Positions 34,901 to 58,900 of a stretch of 64,000 nt of DNA are shown one piece after another. The stretch's first letter is position 1. Every line of letters begins with the position of its first letter. The notes below the pieces were generated by a model. That model ran no database searches, had not been told where the DNA came from, and saw nothing but the letters and a program-made list of their open reading frames with translations. The position numbers were made by a program, and so were the translations under genes. The DNA is from Siphonodentalium dalli. Taxonomy: Eukaryota > Mollusca > Scaphopoda > Gadilida > Siphonodentaliidae. The stretch covers positions 54,770,025-54,834,024 of the forward strand of contig CP136068.1 of assembly GCA_032622095.1 (NCBI GenBank), in the 5' to 3' direction.

Positions 34901-37900
34901 AATTCCGAAAAAGGAAACACGTGTCATTGCATGAAATTAGGAAACATCGCGTTGTCATTAACAATATAGTCAAGATAATGTTCATTAAAATTGAACAGAT
35001 GAAAAGAGCAACTTATCTTGCGAGGTAGAAGAAATTGAAAGACCGTAGACTTACTTGACATTGCTTTAATAACGAAAGGACTGTCACATGGTCTAGCGGA
35101 AGTTGAATCTGATCGGGTTTGACCGTGCACATACTTTAGGTACTTCGTACAGATTTTAAAATAATTCTTTGCCGGAGATATTAATAACACAAAGTGTAGT
35201 TGTAATCGAACGTCTGGCTTACTATATTGTATCGTCATTTAAGTGCTTTGGTCATATCATGATGTTGTCACTTTTTACTGGTGGAGGAAAGCGATTAATT
35301 TCAGTATGTGGATCACTAAAGAGTAAAATCCAAGATGGCTGCCGGTGGCCATGTTTTTTGGCCGAATGACCCCAAAATGACCCCATCTACATTTCATTGT
35401 TAACACCCATGACAAATTTCATGATGATCCGACCAAAGATACGACTTGTAGCCTGTGCCAAAGGATTTAGTCATGCAAAGAGTAAAATCCAAGATGGCTG
35501 CTGGCGGACATGTTATTTGGCCGAACGACCCCAAAATTACTCGTTCCCATCTACATGTCAATATTAACATCCATGACAAATTTCATGATGATCAGACAAA
35601 CAGTACAACCTCTAGCCCGTGCTAATGGATTGAATTTTGAAATCCAAGATGGCCACTGGCGGCAATGTTTTTTTGCCGAATTACCCCAAAATGACTCGTC
35701 CCATCTACATGTCAATGTCAACAGCCGCAACAAATTTCATAAAGATCCGTCCAAAGGTACGACCTGTAGCCCGTGCCAAAGGATTTAGTCATGCAAAGAG
35801 TAAAATCCAAGATGGCTGCCGACGGCCATTTGTTTTGGCCGATTTACCCCAAAATGACTCCTTCCCATCTACTTGTCATTGTTAACATCCATGCAAATTT
35901 CATGATGATCCGACCAAAGGTACGACCTGTAGCCCGTGTAAAATCCAAGATGGATGCTGGCGGCCATGTTTTTTAGCCGAACTACCCCAAATTTACTCGT
36001 TCCCATCTACATGTCAATATTAACAGCCATGATCAGATAAACAGTACGACCTGTAGCCCGTGCTAATGATTTGAATTTCGAAATCCAAGATGGCCATAAA
36101 GATCCGTCCAAAGGTACGACCTGTAGCCCGTGCCAAAGGATTTAGTCATGCAAAGAGTAAAATCCAAGATGGCTGCCGACGGCCATTTGTTTTGGCCGAT
36201 TTACCCCAAAATGACTCCTTCCCATCTACTTGTCATTGTTAACATCCATGCAAATTTCATGATGATCCGACCAAAGGTACGACCTGTAGCCCGTGTAAAA
36301 TCCAAGATGGATGCTGGCGGCCATGTTTTTTAGCCGAACTACCCCAAATTTACTCGTTCCCATCTACATGTCAATATTAACAGCCATGATCAGATAAACA
36401 GTACGACCTGTAGCCCGTGCTAATGATTTGAATTTCGAAATCCAAGATGGCCACTGGCGGCAATGTTTTTCTCTCGAACGACCCCCAAATGACTCGTTCC
36501 CATCTACATGTCAATGTCAACAGCTATACCAAATTTAACTAGAGATGGGCTATTATACAAAATGATATTCGAATGAAGTAGCCATTACCATATATTTGGC
36601 ACTGAAATTATGTCAACAGGTAACCCTAACCCTAAACAGTATGCGGCTTATACGGACCCTGGCTCTTACGGACCCTGGCTCTTACGGACCCTGGCTTTTA
36701 CGGACCACCGGCTGATACGGACCCTGGCTTATACGGACCTCAATTAAAATATGCAATTTTCAAACTTATATTTATGAATTTAATATATAATTATGATTGT
36801 CTTTTTACACATATATCTGTATTAATTGAGAATTTTTTGGTGATTTTCAAACTTATATTTATGAATATAGCTGATTTTTTCAGTGATTTTCAAACTTATA
36901 TTTATGAATTTAATATATAATTATGATTGTCATTTCACACATATATCTGTATTAATTGAGAATTTTTGTGATTTTCAAACTTATATTTATGAATTTAACC
37001 GATTTTTTCGTTTTTTTTTTCAAACTTATATTTATGAATTTAATATATAATTATGATTGTATTTTCACACATATATCTGTATTAATTGAGAATTTCGGTG
37101 ATGTTCTGGCTTGAAAAAGCATTTATTGAATCACGTTAATTAATCTCTTCATCGTTGTATAAACACGGGCGTGTGATCCCTTTATGTCGTTGTATAAACA
37201 GACACGCGGTGATAAATGGTCAGTGAATGGTGATCAGGATGAATCCACTGAATTTGATTTGTTATGAAAACATGTTAGTAAAAACACAACTGGTATATAT
37301 TCAACTGATTTATTTTTGACTGGCATAATTCCACAATGACTGCATTGAATCTGAATGTTCTACTTGAGAGCACAACAGCTACTACTCGTCGATGAGGATA
37401 ACTGCCAGCAAACTACTGAAAGAAGCCGCCAAGCTGTACGCCCCAATTTATATAATGTTCGTCTGATGTAACGTTGTTCCATTTTTGTTATCATCAGATT
37501 TGTTGTTATCTCAGTATGTATGTTGTCAGTATTTTGATTTTATTTAAATAAACATAAAAAATAAAATTGTATATTTTAATTGAGGTCCGTATGAGCCAGG
37601 GTCCGTATAAGCCGAGGGTCCGTATAAGCCAGGGTCCTTATAAGCCAGGGTCCGTATCAGCCGGTGGTCCGTAAAAGCCAGGGTCCGTATGAGCCAGGGT
37701 CCGTAAGAGCCAGGGTCCGTATCAGCCGGCATTCACCCTAAACCCCCTAACTCTAATCCTAAATTTATTGACTGAATAAAAGCTCTGAAAAAAATTATGC
37801 ATGTTGCGAAAAAAATTCTAAGTCGAAAAAGGGGGATAACTCCACCAAAAAATGGCGTACAGACGTCATAAACACAGGTTCCCATGGTACTAAATATCTG

Positions 37901-40900: not shown

Positions 40901-43900
40901 TTTTTCATGTTCAAGAAATTTCTTAGTATATCTCATGATCGTTACCAGACAGGTATCTTTTAAAGAAATTAATGTAGTTTGAGTGTGTTTTATTGAAGGC
41001 TAAGACACTGTGGCCATTTGGGCAGGTGTCATCTTGTACTACTCACATAAACAAAACAACAGCTACCATAATTTCTATGTTAGAGCCGAGTCGGGTGTCA
41101 TCTTGTACCATCTTCTGAGGTATGTCTACAAGGTACATGGAATTGTTACTTCATCATATCATCAAGACTGCAAATATGTGTCTGTCGTTAGCAGAATGAG
41201 GGTCCCCAGAGGGTGAATTTAGTGACGCTATCCCACATGGTGGGCTAGGGTCATCAAATTCACCCTCTGAGAACCTCATTCTTCTTAGGCCTCAACTGCT
41301 ATGGGAGACCTAGGTTGAAGTTCTTGATGTTCACCCATTAGTCGCTTCGATTATGCATTGTATCTTCTGAAAATTACAGGATATAGAAACTTCCCAGAAG
41401 GGAAGAAGTAACTAAAAATATGTTAATTTGAGACTATAGACACTTCCCAGAAGATGAGGCTTGCAAATTTTCAGGCTTGCATATCATTAATTGAATTTAA
41501 TTCATCATAATTAATTCAGCATATAATTTGTGAAACAGTCTAGAGGTCACAAAAAACTCCCAAATGAGGACAAAGAACTTCAAAGTGTGAGCTAAACATT
41601 GTTGTAGAACTAAGTACTGAATGAGAATAGTCATACAAAGGATGAATGCTGAAAACATTAAATGTACCTTCTAACCATTTAACCCTTTACCCAACAGAAG
41701 GGCCCTGTGCCAATGCATTCTCTTATATATGCGAGTCGACCATAGGTCGCCTCGCATATATAAGAGAATGCATTGGCTTAACACATTAAAAATTATAAAA
41801 TTGTTAAAGAATGTAAGAAAAAATGGTAATAAGTGTTAAAAAAAGAATTTTTTTAGGCCAATGCATTCTCTTATATATGCGAGGCGACCTATGGTCGACT
41901 CGCATATATAAGAGAATGCATTGGCACAGGGCATAACTGTAACCATCACAATGTGGTCAAGGAGCCGGTTCCAATGATATCCATATTTGTATGGTTCTAT
42001 TGAGACAGACCGAAGATATTTTAGGCTGTTGAAGCTTTATTTGGCCGGTTTTGGCCGGTTTGTTGGGTAAAGGGTTAAGAATCAGAATCAGTTTATTCAA
42101 TAATATATATAAGAACATAACTATAACATTTTAATATAATAATATATATAAGAACATAACTATAACATTTTAATATAATAATATATATAAGAACATAACT
42201 ATAACATTTTAATATAATAATATATATAAGAACATAACTATAACATTTTAATATAATAATATATATAAGAACATAACTATAACATTTTCATTGATAGTAA
42301 AACATGATATATACTATAATTGGGAGGTAGCATTACCATTTGGTCCTGCTTTTCTCATTTAATATTATGACACGTTCATTATACTATATCCGAACACATT
42401 AATCCATACTCATACTGAATTAATTACACATATAGTGACAGAGAATATGCAACAAATGCAACTAATCGACTTGGGATTCTGGAGTTGACTTTTGGTGAAC
42501 AATTCATCGATGTCGACTAATCGACAAATCGTTTCAACTTTCAACACTAGTTCTGTGTGACTACTATATTCTTATTGTGATTTATACGTATTGCTTTTTT
42601 CTGTCACAACCATCTTGTTTATAAATTTTTATTTCCCCCATATTTCTAGTCCATAATTTAGATGGCAATGGATGAGACAATGATAATATTTGTATACGCA
42701 TTGATGGGTAGTTACTTGGTACCAATTGATTCAGCTGTAGGGATGTTTAGCTAATAGCTTCAACTAACAGTCTTAGGTTAGACTATTATCTTAACATCCT
42801 AACAACTAAATTAATATAAATCCATAAAGTTCCCTACACTGCGCATAATCATCAGAAACAATGGCACAAAACCATGATTTCAGATCACATTATAACACTA
42901 CACTCATCAGAAAAATTCACATAAGAGAAATCTAAGGAAAATTATTTGTCATCTCCATAGTTATTGAAAAAAAACAAATAATACACAGAACGAGAATGTG
43001 TTAGTCGGTTTGTTGTAATTGCTAGACATGGCATATTTCATGATAACTATATATATTACTCACGTTTTGTGTCCTGAGGAGTCGAAGGTTTATCGGCTTG
43101 TGGTAGGAGAGTACCATGCTCGCCCACGTTAAGATATTTACTGCGACGTTTACGTAGCTTTTTCTTGGCTTGCTGCTGGCCCGTCTGATCTTTGCTCTCT
43201 GCCTCAGACCGCAGGTGGCTCCCTGGTAAAAGAGAAAGAAAATTGTTAGTTACATACTCCATAAACTGATGCGAATAGATATTTCTTAACTCATATCCTC
43301 TGTCAAACAGTGAAATATTCATGAGGACAATAAAATTGTCAAATATATTATAGCAGGTAGCCATATTCAATATCATTTGTAATTCTGTTATAAAATTGTT
43401 AACCATTTATATACTAAATACTCATTGATGAGTAGTTCCTTAGGAAATATTCAGATAATAACTTCCTCAAAAAGGGTCATAGGTTAACATTTCCGATATG
43501 AGAGAGGAGCGAGGAGAGAGGAGCGAGATGAGATGAGATTACGTTTTAATGGTCATTGAATAACCATAAGAAGTAACAGACAATACAAATAAAATAATGT
43601 AAAAATAAAGTACAAGACACTGTAGGAACTGTTACATCGGAAGTCGTTCTATCGCCGGCATTGTGATGGTTCTTGACTGATTTGTTACGGCTCCTTATGA
43701 TTAAAAATATCTTGAATGTATTATACTTTGCTGAATGAACAGAGGCTGCAGAAGTGGCATTTTGTCGAAACCTGCACTCTAGATCACAATTAACGTGGAT
43801 TTAGCAAGTTAGTGCGTAAATATGAACATGTTATCACTGAAAAATCATGCCACATAAATGCAATTCCTTTGTTTTTTGGTGGCGAATAAACTATGAAACG

Positions 43901-46900: not shown

Positions 46901-49900
46901 GTTTGCATCATCAATAGAGCACATGAGTGGATTTGACACTAATCCATGGCTCAAATTCATTAATTTGTTGCATATATTCTGTTGAGTATAAAAGGAAATG
47001 TTCCCATAAATGGCCGCATTTAGAGTACAGTACCTGTTTAAAGATTGTAAAGGTGATAGTTTGAGCAAGACAACAGAACTTTTCTTGAAAGGATTGCTTT
47101 GCCTCACCAGTATCATAGCTAACTGAGCAAACCCATTAACACCATAGAATCATAACAGCATAGTTCACTAGAGTTGCTTCTCTTTCATTGAGACCTTTCC
47201 ATTTTTAGATGGAACACTATCTTCTGATCAATTAAGAAATTTATGGATAATACCAGCTCTGATATTCATATGAATACTTAAAGACATATTATGGACTTGT
47301 TCGGGTGCGTGAAACTGATAAGTTAGTATTCAGGCGCTATTCCCACTGGAGGAATTTAGCATTCTACTAATATCACCGAACATCTCAAGAACATCAACCA
47401 TACCACTCCATAGACAACATCGTCTGAACTACACTCAATTATAAATATATTTAATTCTTCGATTCAGGGCACAACTATCGGAGATAAACTAACGAAAATG
47501 ATTTCGCCATCGTCACTGCATCTAATTAATATATAAAGAATGATGGTATGTGTTGTCAATTTGGAAATAACATTTGTAAAAATAACTACATTGAGCAAGA
47601 TTATTCTCCATTTCTATTTGATCAACCAACTGGAGTGTTTCACATCACTTAAAAGTATCATAGTAGCAATGATCATAAAACTGAGATTTTGACCTTCTTT
47701 TTGGCACCTCATTTACTATGGACCAACATGTGCACACCTGATATGTTAACTCACACGATTTTGGGGTGAGACTCACGATTTCATGCAAATCTCACAAATT
47801 GAGCTAGCTCATGGGTAAATACTTGCTGTCTCGTGTCAATGTACACATACGGGAGGTAATGAAACCCAATCCCAGACAAATATGAAGTTAATACTTGCTG
47901 TAACTTGTGTTAATTAGTGAAAAGCAACCTGGTAGTAAGGGCACATGGGCAACCGGTAGATGTCAACAATGCACTGAGTGTAAATTGCAAATATTTGACA
48001 CAAATTAATCCTTTTTAATTGAGTATGGAAAGTATTAATCCTTTTTAATTGAGTATGGAAAGTATTAATCCTTTTTAATTGAGTATGGAAAGTATTATTT
48101 TCTTTTGAAGATCTTTGTTTTAAAGGCCCACTTAATTTTCGAATGACCAGATTACATTATACACAACATATCCCATATTATATACCATTAGAATGACCAG
48201 ATTACATTATACACAACATATCCCATATTATATACCATTAGAATGACCAGATTACATTATACACAACATATCCCATATTATATACCATTAGAATGACCAG
48301 ATTACATTATACACAACATATCCCATATTATATACCATTAGAATGACCAGATTACATTATACACAACATATCCCATATTATATACCATTAGAATGACCAG
48401 ATTACATTATACACAACATATCCCATATTATATACCATTAGAATGACCAGATTACATTATACACAACATATCCCATATTATATACCATTAGAATGACCAG
48501 ATTACATTATACACAACATATCCCATATTATATACCATTAGAATGACCAGATTACATTATACACAACATATCCCATATTATATACCATTAGAATGACCAG
48601 ATTACATTATACACAACATATCCCATATTATATACCATTAGAATGACCAGATTACATTATACACAACATATCCCATATTATATACCATTAGAATGACCAG
48701 ATTACATTATACACAACATATCCCATATTATATACCATTAGAATGACCAGATTACATTATACACAACATATCCCATATTATATACCATTAGAATGACCAG
48801 ATTACATTATACACAACATATCCCATATTATATACCATTAGAATGACCAGATTACATTATACACAACATATCCCATATTATATACCATTAGAATGACCAG
48901 ATTACATTATACACAACATATCCCATATTATATACCATTAGAATGACCAGATTACATTATACACAACATATCCCATATTATATACCATTAGAATGACCAG
49001 ATTACATTATACACAACATATCCCATATTATATACCATTAGAATGACCAGATTACATTATACACAACATATCCCATATTATATACCATTAGAATGACCAG
49101 ATTACATTATACACAACATATCCCATATTATATACCATTAGAATGACCAGATTACATTATACACAACATATCCCATATTATATACCATTAGAATGACCAG
49201 ATTACATTATACACAACATATCCCATATTATATACCATTAGAATGACCAGATTACATTATACACAACATATCCCATATTATATACCATTAGAATGACCAG
49301 ATTACATTATACACAACATATCCCATATTATATACCATTAGAATGACCAGATTACATTATACACAACATATCCCATATTATATACCATTAGAATGACCAG
49401 ATTACATTATACACAACATATCCCATATTATATACCATTAGAATGACCAGATTACATTATACACAACATATCCCATATTATATACCATTAGAATGACCAG
49501 ATTACATTATACACAACATATCCCATATTATATACCATTAGAATGACCAGATTACATTATACACAACATATCCCATATTATATACCATTAGAATGACCAG
49601 ATTACATTATACACAACATATCCCATATTATATACCATTAGAATGACCAGATTACATTATACACAACATATCCCATATTATATACCATTTGGAAGAGGAA
49701 CCAAAAAAATATATATTCCACCAGAACATGGAACAGCTGTGGCCTTGTAGTGTCCACCGAGTGATAGAGATTCTCAGATTCATTCCAAGACTCCCCCCTT
49801 GTCAACCCAGAATGCATCAGAATTCAAACTAAGCGATAGAGTTATTCCCCTTCCATTGAGAATAATAGACTTTATAGAACAGTCCGGATCACAATTAATC

Positions 49901-52900
49901 ACAGAACATACCTCAGTACCTCGACAAAAACAATATTTTCCCAGTTTATTCGACTGGATCAGTTGACAATACAATGTTTTGGAACTTCCTCTATCAAATG
50001 GTATATAATATGGAATATGTTGTATATAATGTGGTCTGGTGGTTCGAAAATTAAGTGGGACTTTAAGTAAAAACATCAAATTAACTACTTTCAATAAACA
50101 TTCAAAGCTCTATTTTTAATAGTAAGCAAGCACGTGCTATTGTTTACAAAATATATCTGCAACTCACAAAAGTAAAAAAGTTGGATTGGGAAACGGAGAC
50201 AGTTACAACCTTACATAAATTTAAAATTTCTTGGATATTTTTAAAGGTTTAAATGTACACATAGTACTGCATGCTCTGCGATGATCGTACCATTTTCAGT
50301 TACAAAATGACCCGGCAGAACAAAGTAAAATGCAGAAGACATAGCTCATCCTAAACTTCGTCGCAAAGTGCAATTCGCCATTTCCAAAAGCACTCAATAT
50401 GATTAGAATATGTGGATATAGTGCAGAATGTACAATGCCATTTTAAAAATGCCTCTTTAGAACAGTTATCAAAATCTCACTATTTTTCCCGGAATCTCAC
50501 AATTTTTTTAGAGGAAATCTTGCAATTTCCGACATTCTGAAGTTGACAAGTCTGGCGCACACTTTCAATCAAATTGGTGACATTTTCCGTGTATTGAACT
50601 TACTTTTAACCAATCCCCATACACTTTTTCTGTATTTGACTTCACTAGTCACCAGCAGTCTGCTTTTGCTTTTATTCACTCGTGTTATACAGAATCTATT
50701 GGTGACAAAGAATGAGTCGGAGTATGGAATGCCACCATTCTGGACCATGTTATCAATGAGGTACTTAAAACCAGGCTTACTCTCTTTGTACCATATCTGT
50801 AAAATAGAATAAAATTCACTCACTCACTCCTAAAAGACTTCTCCAATTCACCACACCCTGGAAAGGTTTATTTTTGATTTGCTGGGATGTTCCAACAATA
50901 CAAATATAACAATATAAGCAGATGACAGGCAAATAAACACAAGATGGATTCCCGCTCATTCGTTTATAGAGCTGTTCGTTGAACTTACCATACTATTTGA
51001 ACATCATGAGAAATGAATGAATAGGACTACCTATTGAGTATTTAGTTGTCAAAGGGTTAAATTAACTAACTTAGACAAGCAGCAGTCTGAATTACCCTGT
51101 CTGTGGTAATGGCTATCTGATCTACGCGATTAACAAATTTACTCAACATTAAACCCAGTTAGTACTGTTAGCTGAGAAAGGCCTATAACTCCAGAAGATC
51201 AAATTTCAACTTGAACTTCTCAGTCAAACTGATGCCTCGACGAACCAATAACATAATAATAAGCATAAAAGCAGATGTCTAAGAATTTTTTTTTAGCCAT
51301 ACAACAAATATTGCATCCAAACATGGAAATATGGCAACATCAAATTTCTTTCAAATAAGTTTCCAAATATGTATAACAAACCTGCTTTTCTGTGGTTGGT
51401 GATGTTTTTGGTCCAAACGATGCTCCCAATGTGAGAGTATAAGAAATGTTCCGTAGTCGATTGCCATTTTCATCCACCTCGTCTGACCATGGAGGCAAAA
51501 CCAGATCTGTGTATTATGATGGAAGTTGAAATTATTTATTGTGTCTTCCTTTATCTTAATCTTATGAACAATGTGAACAATGTGAACAGTATGTCTAGTC
51601 TACACACAATAACTATAATTTAGACCACAACCCAATTTAATCACCGCCCAATATATTCGAACACCGGGAGTGATAGGGAGACAGTCAAGTACATGATTCT
51701 ATTACATGATCCTACCCTTATTCCATTCAATAAACCCATTCTATAAATTGTGATATTAAACGTTCGTTTAATAACAGTAAATAGTGCCAGGTGACCTTTG
51801 ACTTCCGGTTTGTCATCTGTTTACATTCCGCACACTACATCTCAAACTACAATGAATTCCAATATTTCCCAACAAACTATAATGAATGAAGAGCTTGAAA
51901 AGTTATGTCATTAGATATATGCCATTAAATATGCCAAAGGGTCTTTATTTATCTGGGACTATATCTTTACGCGCAAACAATGCATAGTTATGTGAAACGC
52001 CATCGCATGCCTTATTGAAGCTGATGTCCCATTTGTTGATTTAAGTATGTTTTGTCGAGACTATGGATCATGTAATAAATAGAATCCACAACTCATCCCC
52101 AGTTTATAGCGGAATTTACAAAACTCATCCAGTAAATTAGGTCTGAACTCGTTTTGTAAATTCCGCTATTAACTGGGGACTCGTTGTTGATCATCTATAT
52201 ATCACCCCTAACAATATACATTGCTACACATGTTTCACATTTGTATTAATATGTATTGTTCATATGTATATTGTAAATAAAATTATCCTATCAAATCCTT
52301 TGTGACATATCATGCATGATATCTTAGTGATATCACAGCCAAACGGAGCACAAGTTTTACAACTTAACACCACATGACGGTTTGCACGCCAAAATACACC
52401 TAATAATATTCGCTTTTGAATTTGTTACCTGAATTACCATTATGCAAGCACTATGTGTCCCAGAAAGATGCATTGAAGTCATAAAAATACAACTTTGAAC
52501 ATTGAATCAAATATTCCGACATTTGTATTCATTGTTTATTCTTGAATTGGAAATGAGCGACTTCCGGAAATAACATTTTCAATAGAAAAAACATATTCCC
52601 TATTAAAGTACTTCCACACTGAACTACATGGTATTTCCCATTCTATTCACATAAGGGTAGCTCTATGAGACTACCTATTAAATTTTATTATTTGGTTTGA
52701 AATAGCCCAAGTATGCACTCTTAACCCGAAGTTCACGGAAGGGACAGCCGAGAGGGCAATGTAGGCGAAGAAGTCTCCCTATTCTTGCTTCACATTGCCC
52801 TAATTTTGCAGCCGGGTGAAGTTCAAGTCACCCTGAAATTTTCGAAGTTGACAGATGAAAATCGGCAAAATATTCATCCTAAATTACTGCGGACATTTAT

Positions 52901-55900
52901 TGAACCCAGTTATCCATTGACAGGGTCTTATGAATAACCATAATTCTTATTATCATCTGTATTAATCCGATTTGGGAGCATATTCACACCTGAGCATTGA
53001 TTGCAGACAGCTGTGAATACATCGTAAGGTGTTTTCAGTAACTTGTGATTTTGAGATTATCACATTACCATGTGTCAGTTCATCACCCCTTTGTTAAAGT
53101 TTGTAAAGGCCAGAAAAACTTTGAAAACAAACTCATTTGTTTAACATGCTAATATCTGTACCCAGCTTTGGCACTTTTAATGAATGAGAATATTCAAGAT
53201 TTCGTTTCGTTCAGCAATTTTTTTCCTATTCATAAACATTGTTTAATGTTTTTTTTATTTATTCATAAGCGGTTGTGAATTATTATATAAAATGCTACCA
53301 TTCTTGCTACCATTCTCTCACAATGAAAGTGTCAATGACACTGTAGCTCAACTTGGAAAGGGAATAATTTAATGTATTACAGTCAATGGAGCGATTAGGA
53401 ATGCGGAAAGTTGAATGTCTAATACTAGTTTATAGACATGAAGAGAAAAGTAAAATCCAAGATGGCTGCTGGCGCCCATGTTTACGGCCGAATGACCCCA
53501 AAATGAGTCGTACCCATCTACATGTCATCGTTAACATCCATGACAAATTTTATGACGATCAGACTAAAGGTACGACCTGTAGCCCTTGCTAAAGAATTTA
53601 GTCATACAAAGAGTAAAATCCAAGATGGCTGCTGGCGGCCATGTTTTTTGGCCGAATGACCCCAAAATGACTCGTTCCCATCTACATGTCATTATTAACA
53701 TTCATGACAAATTTTATGATGATCAGACTAAAGGTACGACCTGTAGCCCGTGCTAAAGGATTTAGTCATACAAAGAGTAAAATTCAAGGCGGCTGCTGGT
53801 GGCCATGTTTTTTGGCCGATGACCCCAAAATTACTCGTTCCCATCTACATGTCAATATTATCATCCATGACAAATTTCATGATGATCAGACGAACAGTAC
53901 GACCTGTGGCCCATGCTAATGTATTAAATTTTGAAATCCAAATGGCCGCTGGTGGCCATGTTTTTTGTCCGAATAACCCCAAAATGACTCGTTCCCATCT
54001 ACATTCCAATTTCAACAGCCATGACAAATTTTATGATGATCAGACTAAAGGTACGACCTGCAGCCCGTGCTAAAGAATTTAGTCATACAAAGAGTAAAAT
54101 TCAAGATGACTGCTGGCGGCCATGTTTTTTGGCCGAATGACCCCAAAATTACTCGTTCCCATCTACATGTCAATATTATCATCCATGACAAATTTCATGA
54201 TGATCAGACGAACAGTACGACCTGTGGCCCGTGCTAATGGATTAAATTTTGAAATCCAAGATGGTCGCTGCATGGTGGCCAGGTTTTTTGTCCGAATAAC
54301 CCCAAAATGACTCGTTCCCATCTACATTCCAATTTCAACAGCCATGACAAATTTTATGATGATCAGACTAAAGGTACGATTTGTAGCCCGTGCTAAAGGA
54401 TTTAGTCATACAAAGAGCAAAATCCAAGATGGCTGTTGGCGGCCATGTTATTTGGCCGAATGACCCCAAAATAACTCGTTCCCATCTACATGTCATTATT
54501 AACATTCTTGACAAATTTTATGATGATCAGACTAAAAGTAGGACCTGTAACCCGTCCTAAAGGATTTAGTCATACAAAGAGTAAAATCCAAGATGGCTGC
54601 TGGCGATCATGTTTTTTGGCCCGAATGACCCCAAAATTATTCATTTCCATCTACATCTCATTGTTAATATCCATGATAAATTTTATGATGATCAGACTAA
54701 AGGTACGACCTGCAGCCCGTGCTAAAGAATTTAGACATACAAAGAGTAAAATCCAAGATGGCTGCTGGTGGCCATGTTTTTTGGCCGAATGACCCCAAAA
54801 TGACTCGTTCCCATCTACATGTCATTATTAACATTCTTGACAAATTTTATGATGATCAGATTAAAAGTAGAACCTGTAGCCCGTGCTAAAGGATTTAGTC
54901 ATACAAAGAGTAAAATCCAAGATGGCCGCTGGCAGCCATGTTTTTTGGCCGAATGACCCCAAAATTACTCGTTCTCATGTACATGTCAATATTATCATCC
55001 ATGACAAATTTCATGATGATCAGACGAACAGTACGACCTGTGGCCCGTGCTAATGGATTAAATTTTGAAATCCAAGATGGCCACTGGTGGCCATGTTTTT
55101 TTTCCGAATGACCCCAAAATGACTCGTTCCCATCTACATTCCAATTTCAACAGCTATGACAAATTTTATGATGATCAGACTAAAAGTAGGACCTGTAACC
55201 CGTCCTAAAGGATTTAGTCATACAAAGAGTAAAATCCAAGATGGCTGCTGGCGATCATGTTTTTTGGCCCGAATGACCCCAAAATTATTCATTTCCATCT
55301 ATATGTCATTGTTAATATCCATGATAAATTTTATGATGATCAGACTAAAGGTACGACCTGCAGCCCGTGCTAAAGAATTTATGCATACAAAGAGTAAAAT
55401 CCAAGATGGCTGCTGGTGGCCATGTTTTTTGGCCGAATGACCCCAAAATGACTCGATCCCATCTACATGTCATTATTAACATTCTTGACAAATTTCATGA
55501 TGATCAGATTAAAAGTAGAACCTGTAGCCCGTGCTAAAGGATTTAGTCATACAAAGAGTAAAATCCAAGATGGCTGCTGGCAGCCATGTTTTTTGGCCGA
55601 ATGACCCCAAAATTACTCGTTCCCATCTACATGTCAATATTATCATCCATGACAAATTTCATGATGATCAGACGAACAGTACGACCTGTGGCCCGTGCTA
55701 ATGGATTAAATTTTGAAATCCAAGATGGCCACTGGTGGCCATGTTTTTTTTCCGAATGACCCCAAAATGACTCGTTCCCATCTACATTCCAATTTCAACA
55801 GCTATGACAAATTTCATGATGATCAGACTAAAGGTACGATCTGTAGCCCGTGCTAAAGGATTTAGTCATACAAAGAGTAAAATTCAAGGTGGCTGCTGGC

Positions 55901-58900
55901 GGCCATGTTTTTTGGCCGAATGACCCCAAAATGACTCGTTCCCATCTACATGTCATTATTAACATTCTTGACAAATTTTATGATGATCAGACTAAAAGTA
56001 GGACCTGTAGCCCGTGCTAAAGGATTTAGTCATACAAAGAGTAAAATCCAAAATTGGCTGCTGGCGGCCATGTTTTTTGGCCAAATGACCCCAAAATTAC
56101 TCGTTCCCATCTACATGTCATTGTTAATATCCATGACATATTTTATGATGATCAGACTAAAAGTAGGACCTGTAGCCCGTGCCAAAGAATTTAGTCATGC
56201 AAAGAGTAAAATCTAAGATGGCTGCTGGCGATCATGTTTTTTGGCCCGAATGACCCCAAAATTATTCATTTCCATCTATATGTCATTGTTAATATCCATG
56301 ATAAATTTTATGATGATCAGACTAAAGGTACGACCTGCAGCCCGTGCTAAAGGATTTAGTCATACAAAGAGTAAAATTCAAGGTGGCTGCTGGCGGCCAT
56401 GTTTTTTGGCCGAATGACCCCAAAATGACTCGTTCCCATCTACATGTCATTATTAACATTCTTGACAAATTTTATGATGATCAGACTAAAAGTAGGACCT
56501 GTAGCCCGTGCTAAAGGATTTAGTCATACAAAGAGTAAAATCCAAAATTGGCTTCTGGCGGCCATGTTTTTTGGCCAAATGACCCCAAAATTACTCGTTC
56601 CCATCTACATGTCATTGTTAATATCCATGACATATTTTATGATGATCAGACTAAAAGTAGGACCTGTAGCCCGTGCTAAAGGATTTAGTCATACAAAGAG
56701 TAAAATCCAAGATGGCTGCTGGCGGCCATGTTTTTTGGCCGAATGACCCCAAAATTACTCGTTCCCATCTACATGTCAATATTATCATCCATGACAAATT
56801 TCATGATGATCAGACGAACAGTACGTCCTGTGGCCCATGCTAATGGATTATATTTTGAAATCCAAGATGGCCACTGGCGGCCATGTTTTTTGTCCGAATG
56901 ACCCCAAAATGACTCGTTCCCATCTACATTCCAATTTCAACAACCATGACAAATTTCATGATGATCAGACTAAAGGTACGACCTGTAGCCCGTGCTAAAG
57001 GATTTAGTCATACAAAAAGTAAAATCCAAGATGGCTGCTGGTGGCCATGTTTTTTGGCCGAATGACCCCAAAATGACTCGATCCCATCTACATGTCATTA
57101 TTAACATTCTTGACAAATTTCATGATGATCAGATTAAAAGTAGAACCTGTAGCCCGTGCTAAAGGATTTAGTCATACAAAGAGTAAAATCCAAGATGGCT
57201 GCTGGCAGCCATGTTTTTTTTCCGAATGACCCCAAAATGACTCGTTCCCATCTACATTCCAATTTCAACAGCTATGACAAATTTCATGATGATCAGACTA
57301 AAGGTACGATCTGTAGCCCGTGCTAAAGGATTTAGTCATACAAAGAGTAAAATTCAAGGTGGCTGCTGGCGGCCATGTTTTTTGGCCGAATGACCCCAAA
57401 ATGACTCGATCCCATCTACATGTCATTATTAACATTCTTGACAAATTTTATGATGATCAGACTAAAAGTAGGACCTGTAGCCCGTGCTAAAGGATTTAGT
57501 CATACAAAGAGTAAAATCCAAAATTGGCTGCTGGCGGCCATGTTTTTTGGCCAAATGACCCCAAAATTACTCGTTCCCATCTACATGTCATTGTTAATAT
57601 CCATGACATATTTTATGATGATCAGACTAAAAGTAGGACCTGTAGCCCGTGCTAAAGGATTTAGTCATACAAAGAGTAAAATCCAAGATGGCTGCTGGCG
57701 GCCATGTTTTTTGGCCGAATGACCCCAAAATTACTCGTTCCCATCTACATGTCAATATTATCATCCATGACAAATTTCATGATGATCAGACGAACAGTAC
57801 GTCCTGTGGCCCATGCTAATGGATTATATTTTGAAATCCAAGATGGCCACTGGCGGCCATGTTTTTTGTCCGAATGACCCCAAAATGACTCGTTCCCATC
57901 TACATTCCAATTTCAACAACCATGACAAATTTCATGATGATCAGACTAAAGGTACGACCTGTAGCCCGTGCTAAAGGATTTAGTCATACAAAAAGTAAAA
58001 TCCAAAATGGCTGCTGGCGGCCATGTTTTTTTGCCGAATGACCCCAAAATTACTCGTTCCCATCTACATGTCATTGTTAATATCCATGACAAATTTTATA
58101 ATGATCAGACTAAAAGTAGGACCTGTAGCCCGTGCCAAAGAATTTAGTCATGCAAAGAGTAAAATCTAAGATGGCTGTCGGTGGCCATGTTTTTTGGCCG
58201 AATAATCCCAAAATTACTCGTTCCCATCTACATGTCAATATTAACATCCATGACCAATTTCATGATGATCAGAAGAACAGTACGACCTGTAGCCCGTGCT
58301 AATGGATTGAATATTGAAATCCAAAATGGCCACTGGCGGCCATGTTTTTTTCCGGAATGAACTCAACAGCCATGACAAATTTTATAATGATCCGACCAAA
58401 GGTACGACCTGTAGCCTGTGCTAAAGGAAATTGTTGACGCATCACACACGGACACACACACGCACACACAGACGACGGATACCAAGCCATGGCAATAGCC
58501 AGGGTTTCCGCAAGGCCGGCTGCGGGTCCGTCACACGGACCCATTCCCCTCGCAGATGATCTGTTTGATTCATGCATGTACCAAATGTCAGTAGCAATAT
58601 GTCGTAAATTTTTTTTGGCTGCAACGGGAGTTCGGGGGTTGAACAGAATACTGGTGAAAAAGCGGGTCAAATAGGGACATTAGATACAGTGTAATACATG
58701 TCGCGGTAACATCAAAGAATGCCGGACTGTTGAGTACGGATGTTTTTGTGCACGGGATTCCATGGATGAAACTACTCAGACTCGAAGACCCCGTCCTATC
58801 GTACAATTACATAATTGGATCAAAGAACACCCAATTGCTGAGTCGGGATATTTTTATGCACGGGATTTTCGTGGATGAAACTACTCAATGTTGATCATTT

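Follow-up and report, generated by a model that had tools for sequence, protein, structure and literature searches.

Three described systems come close to the element analyzed here, and excerpts of the papers reporting them allow the following comparison. Xmix from Xenopus, with its Xstir repeat, resembles it in being a MITE with a TTAA target, an AGG terminus and one segment turned into a tandem repeat (PMC6004289), and the MITE, tandem array and composite structures reported for Xenopus extend the likeness (PMC12628747). Xmix (T2-MITE), with the TIR as source, is listed together with Xstir; miDNA4 and Tetris with TIR-220 are listed there too (PMC9659126). In miDNA4, also from Xenopus, a motif is similarly found in a MITE either singly or as an array of variable number, and microhomologies are proposed to change the array length (PMC12628747, PMC9659126). 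Xmix/Xstir is the work of Hikosaka and Kawahara, and miDNA4 that of Scalvenzi and Pollet (2014); PMC12628747 outlines the models of both groups. Tetris/TIR-220 of Drosophila virilis shares with our element tandem repeats of variable number in the terminal inverted repeats, together with longer satellite-like arrays, and two of its alleles contain three and four repeats (PMC4079207). Among the papers listed in literature searches, titles and the starts of abstracts showed none naming the MITE family described below.

Structure of the MITE and its array

The window, i.e., the whole stretch of 64,000 nucleotides that was analyzed (C8:54770025-54834024), belongs to a genome of 2.23 Gb in 9 contigs. 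It contains a MITE with the following features.

48120..48123, no strand: left target-site duplication TTAA, read in the sequence
48124..50062, forward strand: whole MITE, 1,939 bp (439 bp counted with a single unit), from its inverted arms, TTAA flanks and many dispersed copies
48124..48140, forward strand: outer part of the left terminal inverted repeat, AGGCCCACTTAATTTTC, from the sequence and arm comparison
48141..49689, forward strand: tandem array of 31 units of 50 bp, the last of 49 bp, junction ACCATT-A-GAATG, from Tandem Repeats Finder and direct count
49690..49993, forward strand: middle of the MITE, including the inner edge of the left arm (49690-49700), from the sequence and arm comparison
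49994..50062, reverse strand: right terminal inverted repeat, with the segment present once, from arm comparison
50063..50066, no strand: right target-site duplication TTAA, read in the sequence

Tandem Repeats Finder reported 31.0 copies of period 50 at 48141-49689, with 100% matches and a score of 3098. Direct counting in the assembly revealed 0 differences in the 1,549 bp of the array, since none of the 30 full 50-bp units differs from the others and the 31st matches them over its 49 bp; the next base is T where the junction has A, and single-copy sequence follows. The array sits within the left inverted repeat of the TTAA-flanked element. The preliminary description of this DNA had proposed that 31 identical units grew out of one arm of a MITE, the inverted right arm having the segment once. 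These statements were borne out, because the unit is a segment of the left inverted repeat, TTAA stands on both sides and the two arms (48120-48192 and 49994-50066) are complementary at 89% over 73 nt.

The features expected of a MITE are present: a single-unit form of 439 bp, arms of ~75 bp, TTAA on both sides and many copies. The single-unit form is so short that the element would be devoid of coding sequence. A 61-bp pattern of the single-unit left arm had 335 matches in the genome at ≤3 mismatches, which may include a few edge units of arrays, and 52 single-copy left arms among the matches listed were identical to it. A query with the tail of the MITE gave 5,040 rough candidates, and scores were computed for 40 of these. 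The Kolobok superfamily is recognized, according to an excerpt of PMC6004289, by a TTAA target site and an RR (AG) terminus, and the window element reads TTAA-AGGCCCACTT, its start being TTAA-AGGCCCACTTAATTTTCG. Based on its TTAA target site, AGG ends and inverted repeats of ~75 bp, the element is probably a non-autonomous MITE of the Kolobok type. The TTAA target site, which the window element has, fits the piggyBac superfamily too, and the target site alone thus cannot separate the two. Filing as a T2-MITE was rejected, since the ends are AGGCC and not the AGGRR motif of this group, that of Xmix.

The right arm had been regarded as the kept single-copy starting state of the left arm, and this view did not hold. 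Six differences separate the left and right arms inside the window unit, five being the common right-arm state in the family and one being private. Since five of the six are the common state, the right arm does not preserve the state from which the left arm started. The exact unit occurs elsewhere in single-copy left arms, and sequence comparison thus designates these arms, rather than the right arm, as the proper controls for the starting state.

None of the window's only four open reading frames of ≥130 aa had a Pfam match (E 0.001); a gene in the window was accordingly rejected, and nothing was found in support of the host intron in which the array had been placed. A perfect 30-bp tandem repeat (48004-48097, 3.1 copies) stops 22 bp short of the element's left TTAA, and another tandem repeat also adjoins the 5' end of the element at L003. 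Repeats of 39 bp (42099-42288, 4.9 copies) and 357 bp (35738-36453, 2.0 copies) match at 100%, indicating that the window has seen several very recent tandem duplications and that such events are no rarity here. An array of ~164-bp units spans 53449-58308 (29.9 copies, 85% matches), and its consensus is similar to that of the array at 35318-35938.

Array loci in the genome and turnover within loci

The junction TATATACCATT-A-GAATGACCAGATTACA had 784 matches at ≤2 mismatches in the 2.23-Gb genome and the reversed-pattern control had 0, which excludes chance. The survey of other copies of the MITE for amplified left arms, proposed in the preliminary description, located at least 20 array loci, window included, and 19 independent insertions as judged by their flanks. 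Of the 784 junction matches, the 20 located loci, drawn from the matches listed, account for 727: on the forward strand for 680 of 687, on the reverse strand for 47 of 97. The unassigned 57 matches include 50 on the reverse strand, where the array at L003 extends past the sequence read, and this set may lack arrays in which every junction departs from the pattern. Simple arrays comprise 2 units at L008, L009 and L016, 3 at L010, 4 at L001, L006 and L012 (where an insert interrupts the last unit), 6 at L005, 8 at L007 and L014, 23 at L017, 25 at L004, 27 at L011, 30 at L013, 31 in the window and 524 at C9:181.66 Mb. Arrays are composite or interrupted at L002, L003, L015 and L020. By eye, the arrays of L003 and L020 contain shorter inner registers in which ACCAG or ATAC forms the join between units, a sign of additional duplications at short words shared by both sides.

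The junction base (unit position 50) is A as a rule at all 20 loci, with another base or a gap in single units of L003, L004, L005, L015, L017, L020 and the 524-unit array. A script found TTAA at both ends of 15 of the 20 loci (L010 qualifies only when the element's first A is included). At four loci (L002, L003, L017 and the 524-unit locus), the script did not find the right end of the element, and the left side of L012 has no TTAA. The 110-bp 5' flanks are mutually unlike, except those of L017 and the 524-unit locus (100% over 59 bp); weaker likeness links L002 to L098 (77% over 99 bp) and L012 to the 524-unit locus (21 bp). A common junction is present at many TTAA-flanked insertions, and its prevalence at every one of the 20 left-arm array loci that were located within the subfamily contradicts the birth of a satellite at the window locus itself.

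In its non-array part, the window copy departs from the family consensus at 17 of 377 positions; in a 54-row alignment, 5 of these changes are private and 12 recur in one or more of the 53 remaining rows. The private rate of 5 in 377 predicts ~20 changes in the 1,549 bp of the array, and 0 were observed. Thus, the window array postdates the insertion of the element, and these values support an amplification that was either recent or strongly homogenized, as had been proposed. Perfect identity of the units is real at this locus but not peculiar to it, since all units are also identical at L010, L012, L014 (8 of 8) and L016. The assembler might have created the copy number or the perfect identity, and 30 identical junctions in 1.5 kb are indeed unusual among the loci read. 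This is nevertheless highly improbable, as other arrays in the assembly keep variation between units, with 10 unit types among 29 at L013 and 31 types among the 523 full units, all of 50 bp, of the 524-unit array. An array of 1.5 kb is short relative to long reads.

Variants are carried by every unit of the locus at eight loci (L005, L006, L010, L011, L012, L014, L016 and L017), which fits homogenization; other variants are absent from the edge units (L004, L011 and L013). L017 and the 524-unit locus, in addition to their identical 5' flanks, share 99.1% identity over 635 bp of tail and 3' flank. Since this one duplicated locus has 23 units in one copy and 524 in the other, array length changes in place. 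Two further pairs, L081/L082 and L083/L085, have similar flanks (88-97%) and unequal array lengths. In the 524-unit array, unit types recur at lags of 150 (0.20) and 148 (0.19), compared to a mean of 0.058, as would fit block duplication.

Preferential transposition of array copies, owing to more transposase-binding sites, was considered and rejected because these copies are not younger than single copies: the median divergence from the consensus is 4.8% for arrays (18 rows) and 4.2% for single copies (36 rows; p 0.25), in a comparison weakened by the choice of single copies with near-perfect left arms. No base of the tail separates array from single copies with a frequency difference of >0.3. 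A segmental duplicate of the window locus was likewise rejected, the best other match being 94-95% among the 40 candidates scored of 5,040, none of which reaches past about base 384 of the 811-base query.

Founding of the arrays

We consider it probable, with moderate confidence, that the MITE carried an old founding duplication and that expansion, contraction and homogenization followed locally. In the left arm of a source element of the subfamily, the subterminal segment GAATG...ACCATT would have been duplicated in tandem, perhaps via the near-direct repeat TTTCGAA/TTTGGAA that brackets it, and the junction would then have settled as the single base A. Transposition would have spread copies already bearing arrays, each of which, after insertion, may have expanded, contracted and homogenized separately by unequal exchange or slippage to reach 2 to 524 units. 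The 31 identical units of the window would be the outcome of a recent round of such local turnover. We infer the single founding event, its microhomology origin and the transport of arrays by transposition.

Common descent of the junction is suggested by the A shared across loci. A serious rival, which we nonetheless regard as unlikely, is that the single-copy arm was duplicated separately at each locus once the element had inserted, always with the same endpoints and the extra A, the arm being a mutational hotspot. Such repeated founding is difficult to reconcile with an A at all 20 loci located. Junctions with two other bases or with no base were not found in the 50-bp arm of this subfamily (≤2 mismatches, among the matches listed); matches to such junctions show the sister arm (GAATGCCC type) in 63 of 63 cases in one pattern set and in 95 of 97 in the other, the two remaining matches being one within L020 and one reading GAATCACC. 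Among the matches listed, single copies have an A beside one edge in the form TTTTAGAATG at two places and ACCATTAGGAAGA at one. At none of the 20 loci does the array begin next to an A: its first edge has C or T throughout (the lead is TTC or TTT at 19 loci and TCTC at L017). The last edge, which the parse covers at 16 loci, reads TG in each of them. Given these edges, neither kind of A-edged single copy fits as the template; arms with TTTTAGAATG, including L058 and L059, were rejected as the origin of the A junction because no first edge read has an A.

Other observations favor founding at each locus. Variants occur in every unit, edges included, at the eight loci listed above; duplication in place would likewise put them in the first, the middle and the last units, and their presence there counts against a single founding. 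The short arrays of L009, L010 and L016 have no unit differences, with tails diverged by 2.4-5.3%. Array copies are also scattered on a tree of the non-array part built from 76 rows (18 array and 58 single; L002, L003 and L067 were left out, as their tails are too short). Grouping of the array copies in one clade was rejected (p-AU 0.0007) on this tree, which is star-like and largely devoid of resolution and whose bootstrap had not settled. The array label requires 15 changes, compared to a mean of 16.4 for shuffled labels, 102 of 500 shuffles being as low. With such scatter, a single founding requires either that arrays collapsed to one unit many times over or that the source elements were mixed; collapse erases the junction A, and repeated loss could therefore scatter the label. 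The variant A21G, present in every unit of L016, is also found in single copies L062 and L063, which do not group with L016 on the tree; its occurrence outside arrays tips the balance slightly towards recurrent founding.

Homologous segments form arrays with other junctions elsewhere, which also speaks for recurrent founding. Right arms contain arrays of 50-bp units with junction T at L081/L082, and a right-arm-like segment is arrayed at L083/L085. In a related subfamily with a 38-bp segment, units are of 38 bp at L089, L090, L091, L095, L097 and within L098, of 40 bp at L092, L094 and L099 and mixed within L093, and of 37 bp at L096. These arrays stand before the inner edge of the left arm wherever that edge was found; at L090 and L093, the outer left end of the element was looked for and not found. 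Both arms of L091 are arrayed, the left with 46 units of 38 bp and the right with 3 of 48 bp. A third related arm has 3,449 matches at ≤3 mismatches, with small clusters spaced by 47-48 bp among the matches listed. Right-arm arrays and other junctions in related subfamilies indicate that, across the wider family, arrays were founded on more than one occasion. We hold it doubtful, although worth stating, that the subterminal segment is a recurrent amplification hotspot, made tandem with the same endpoints independently in both arms and in at least three subfamilies (units of 50, 37-40 and ~48 bp) by a process tied to the element ends, such as the repair of transposase cuts. If so, the transposon would be a repeated generator of satellites.

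The repeat bracketing the segment, TTTCGAA on one side and TTTGGAA on the other, predicts the junction TG, and the 51-bp unit expected from it was not found in the 50-bp subfamily, which weighs against the founding event proposed above. Junctions seen in the wider family are AG, A, T and no base, and L093 mixes AG, TG and none. From these sequences, we infer a duplication founded on microhomology, the junction of which would have drifted later.

Of the 46-kb span at C9:7306000-7351999 (L100-L102), 30 kb were read, and a 48-bp satellite with inverted blocks, i.e., with switches of orientation, makes up all but ~150 bp of them. The satellite unit agrees with the right-arm unit in 40 of 49 columns (z 8.9, mononucleotide shuffles), and the part read has no match to the tail of the MITE. 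Such a related satellite is what one would look for if a pre-existing satellite had been taken into the arm of the MITE, as proposed for miDNA4. Capture is very unlikely, since the unit is the inverted-repeat arm itself, single in the 52 exact left arms among the matches listed and in the right arm; being single in so many arms, the segment looks like an original part of the element.

Transposon-to-satellite transition and known systems

Transitions from transposon to satellite are usually inferred from their end points. Here, one genome combines single copies and arrays of 2, 3, 4, 6, 8, 23, 25, 27, 30, 31 and 524 units in recognizable copies of one element, and adds the 23/524-unit duplicated locus and a long satellite of a related unit. 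The timing of array growth relative to insertion becomes measurable, and slippage, unequal exchange and transposase-linked repair can be compared.

The element differs in several respects from the three systems, as far as the excerpts of their descriptions go. Xmix and Xstir have another host and, as far as is known, another sequence, with AGGRR rather than AGGCC termini. miDNA4 is of the Tc1/mariner type, whereas a Kolobok type is probable here, and its authors are reported to propose the capture of a pre-existing tandem repeat, whereas the unit is here the inverted-repeat arm. Tetris is a foldback element with ~220-bp units in arrays of up to 66 copies (PMC4079207), in contrast to the 50-bp units, arrays of up to 524 units and attached tail found here. 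Tetris and the window element have in common array units that are homologous to the terminal inverted repeat and that vary in number between copies of the element. The window case works in the same way as Xmix/Xstir, miDNA4 and Tetris, and is a well-preserved example of the known growth of satellites from transposons.
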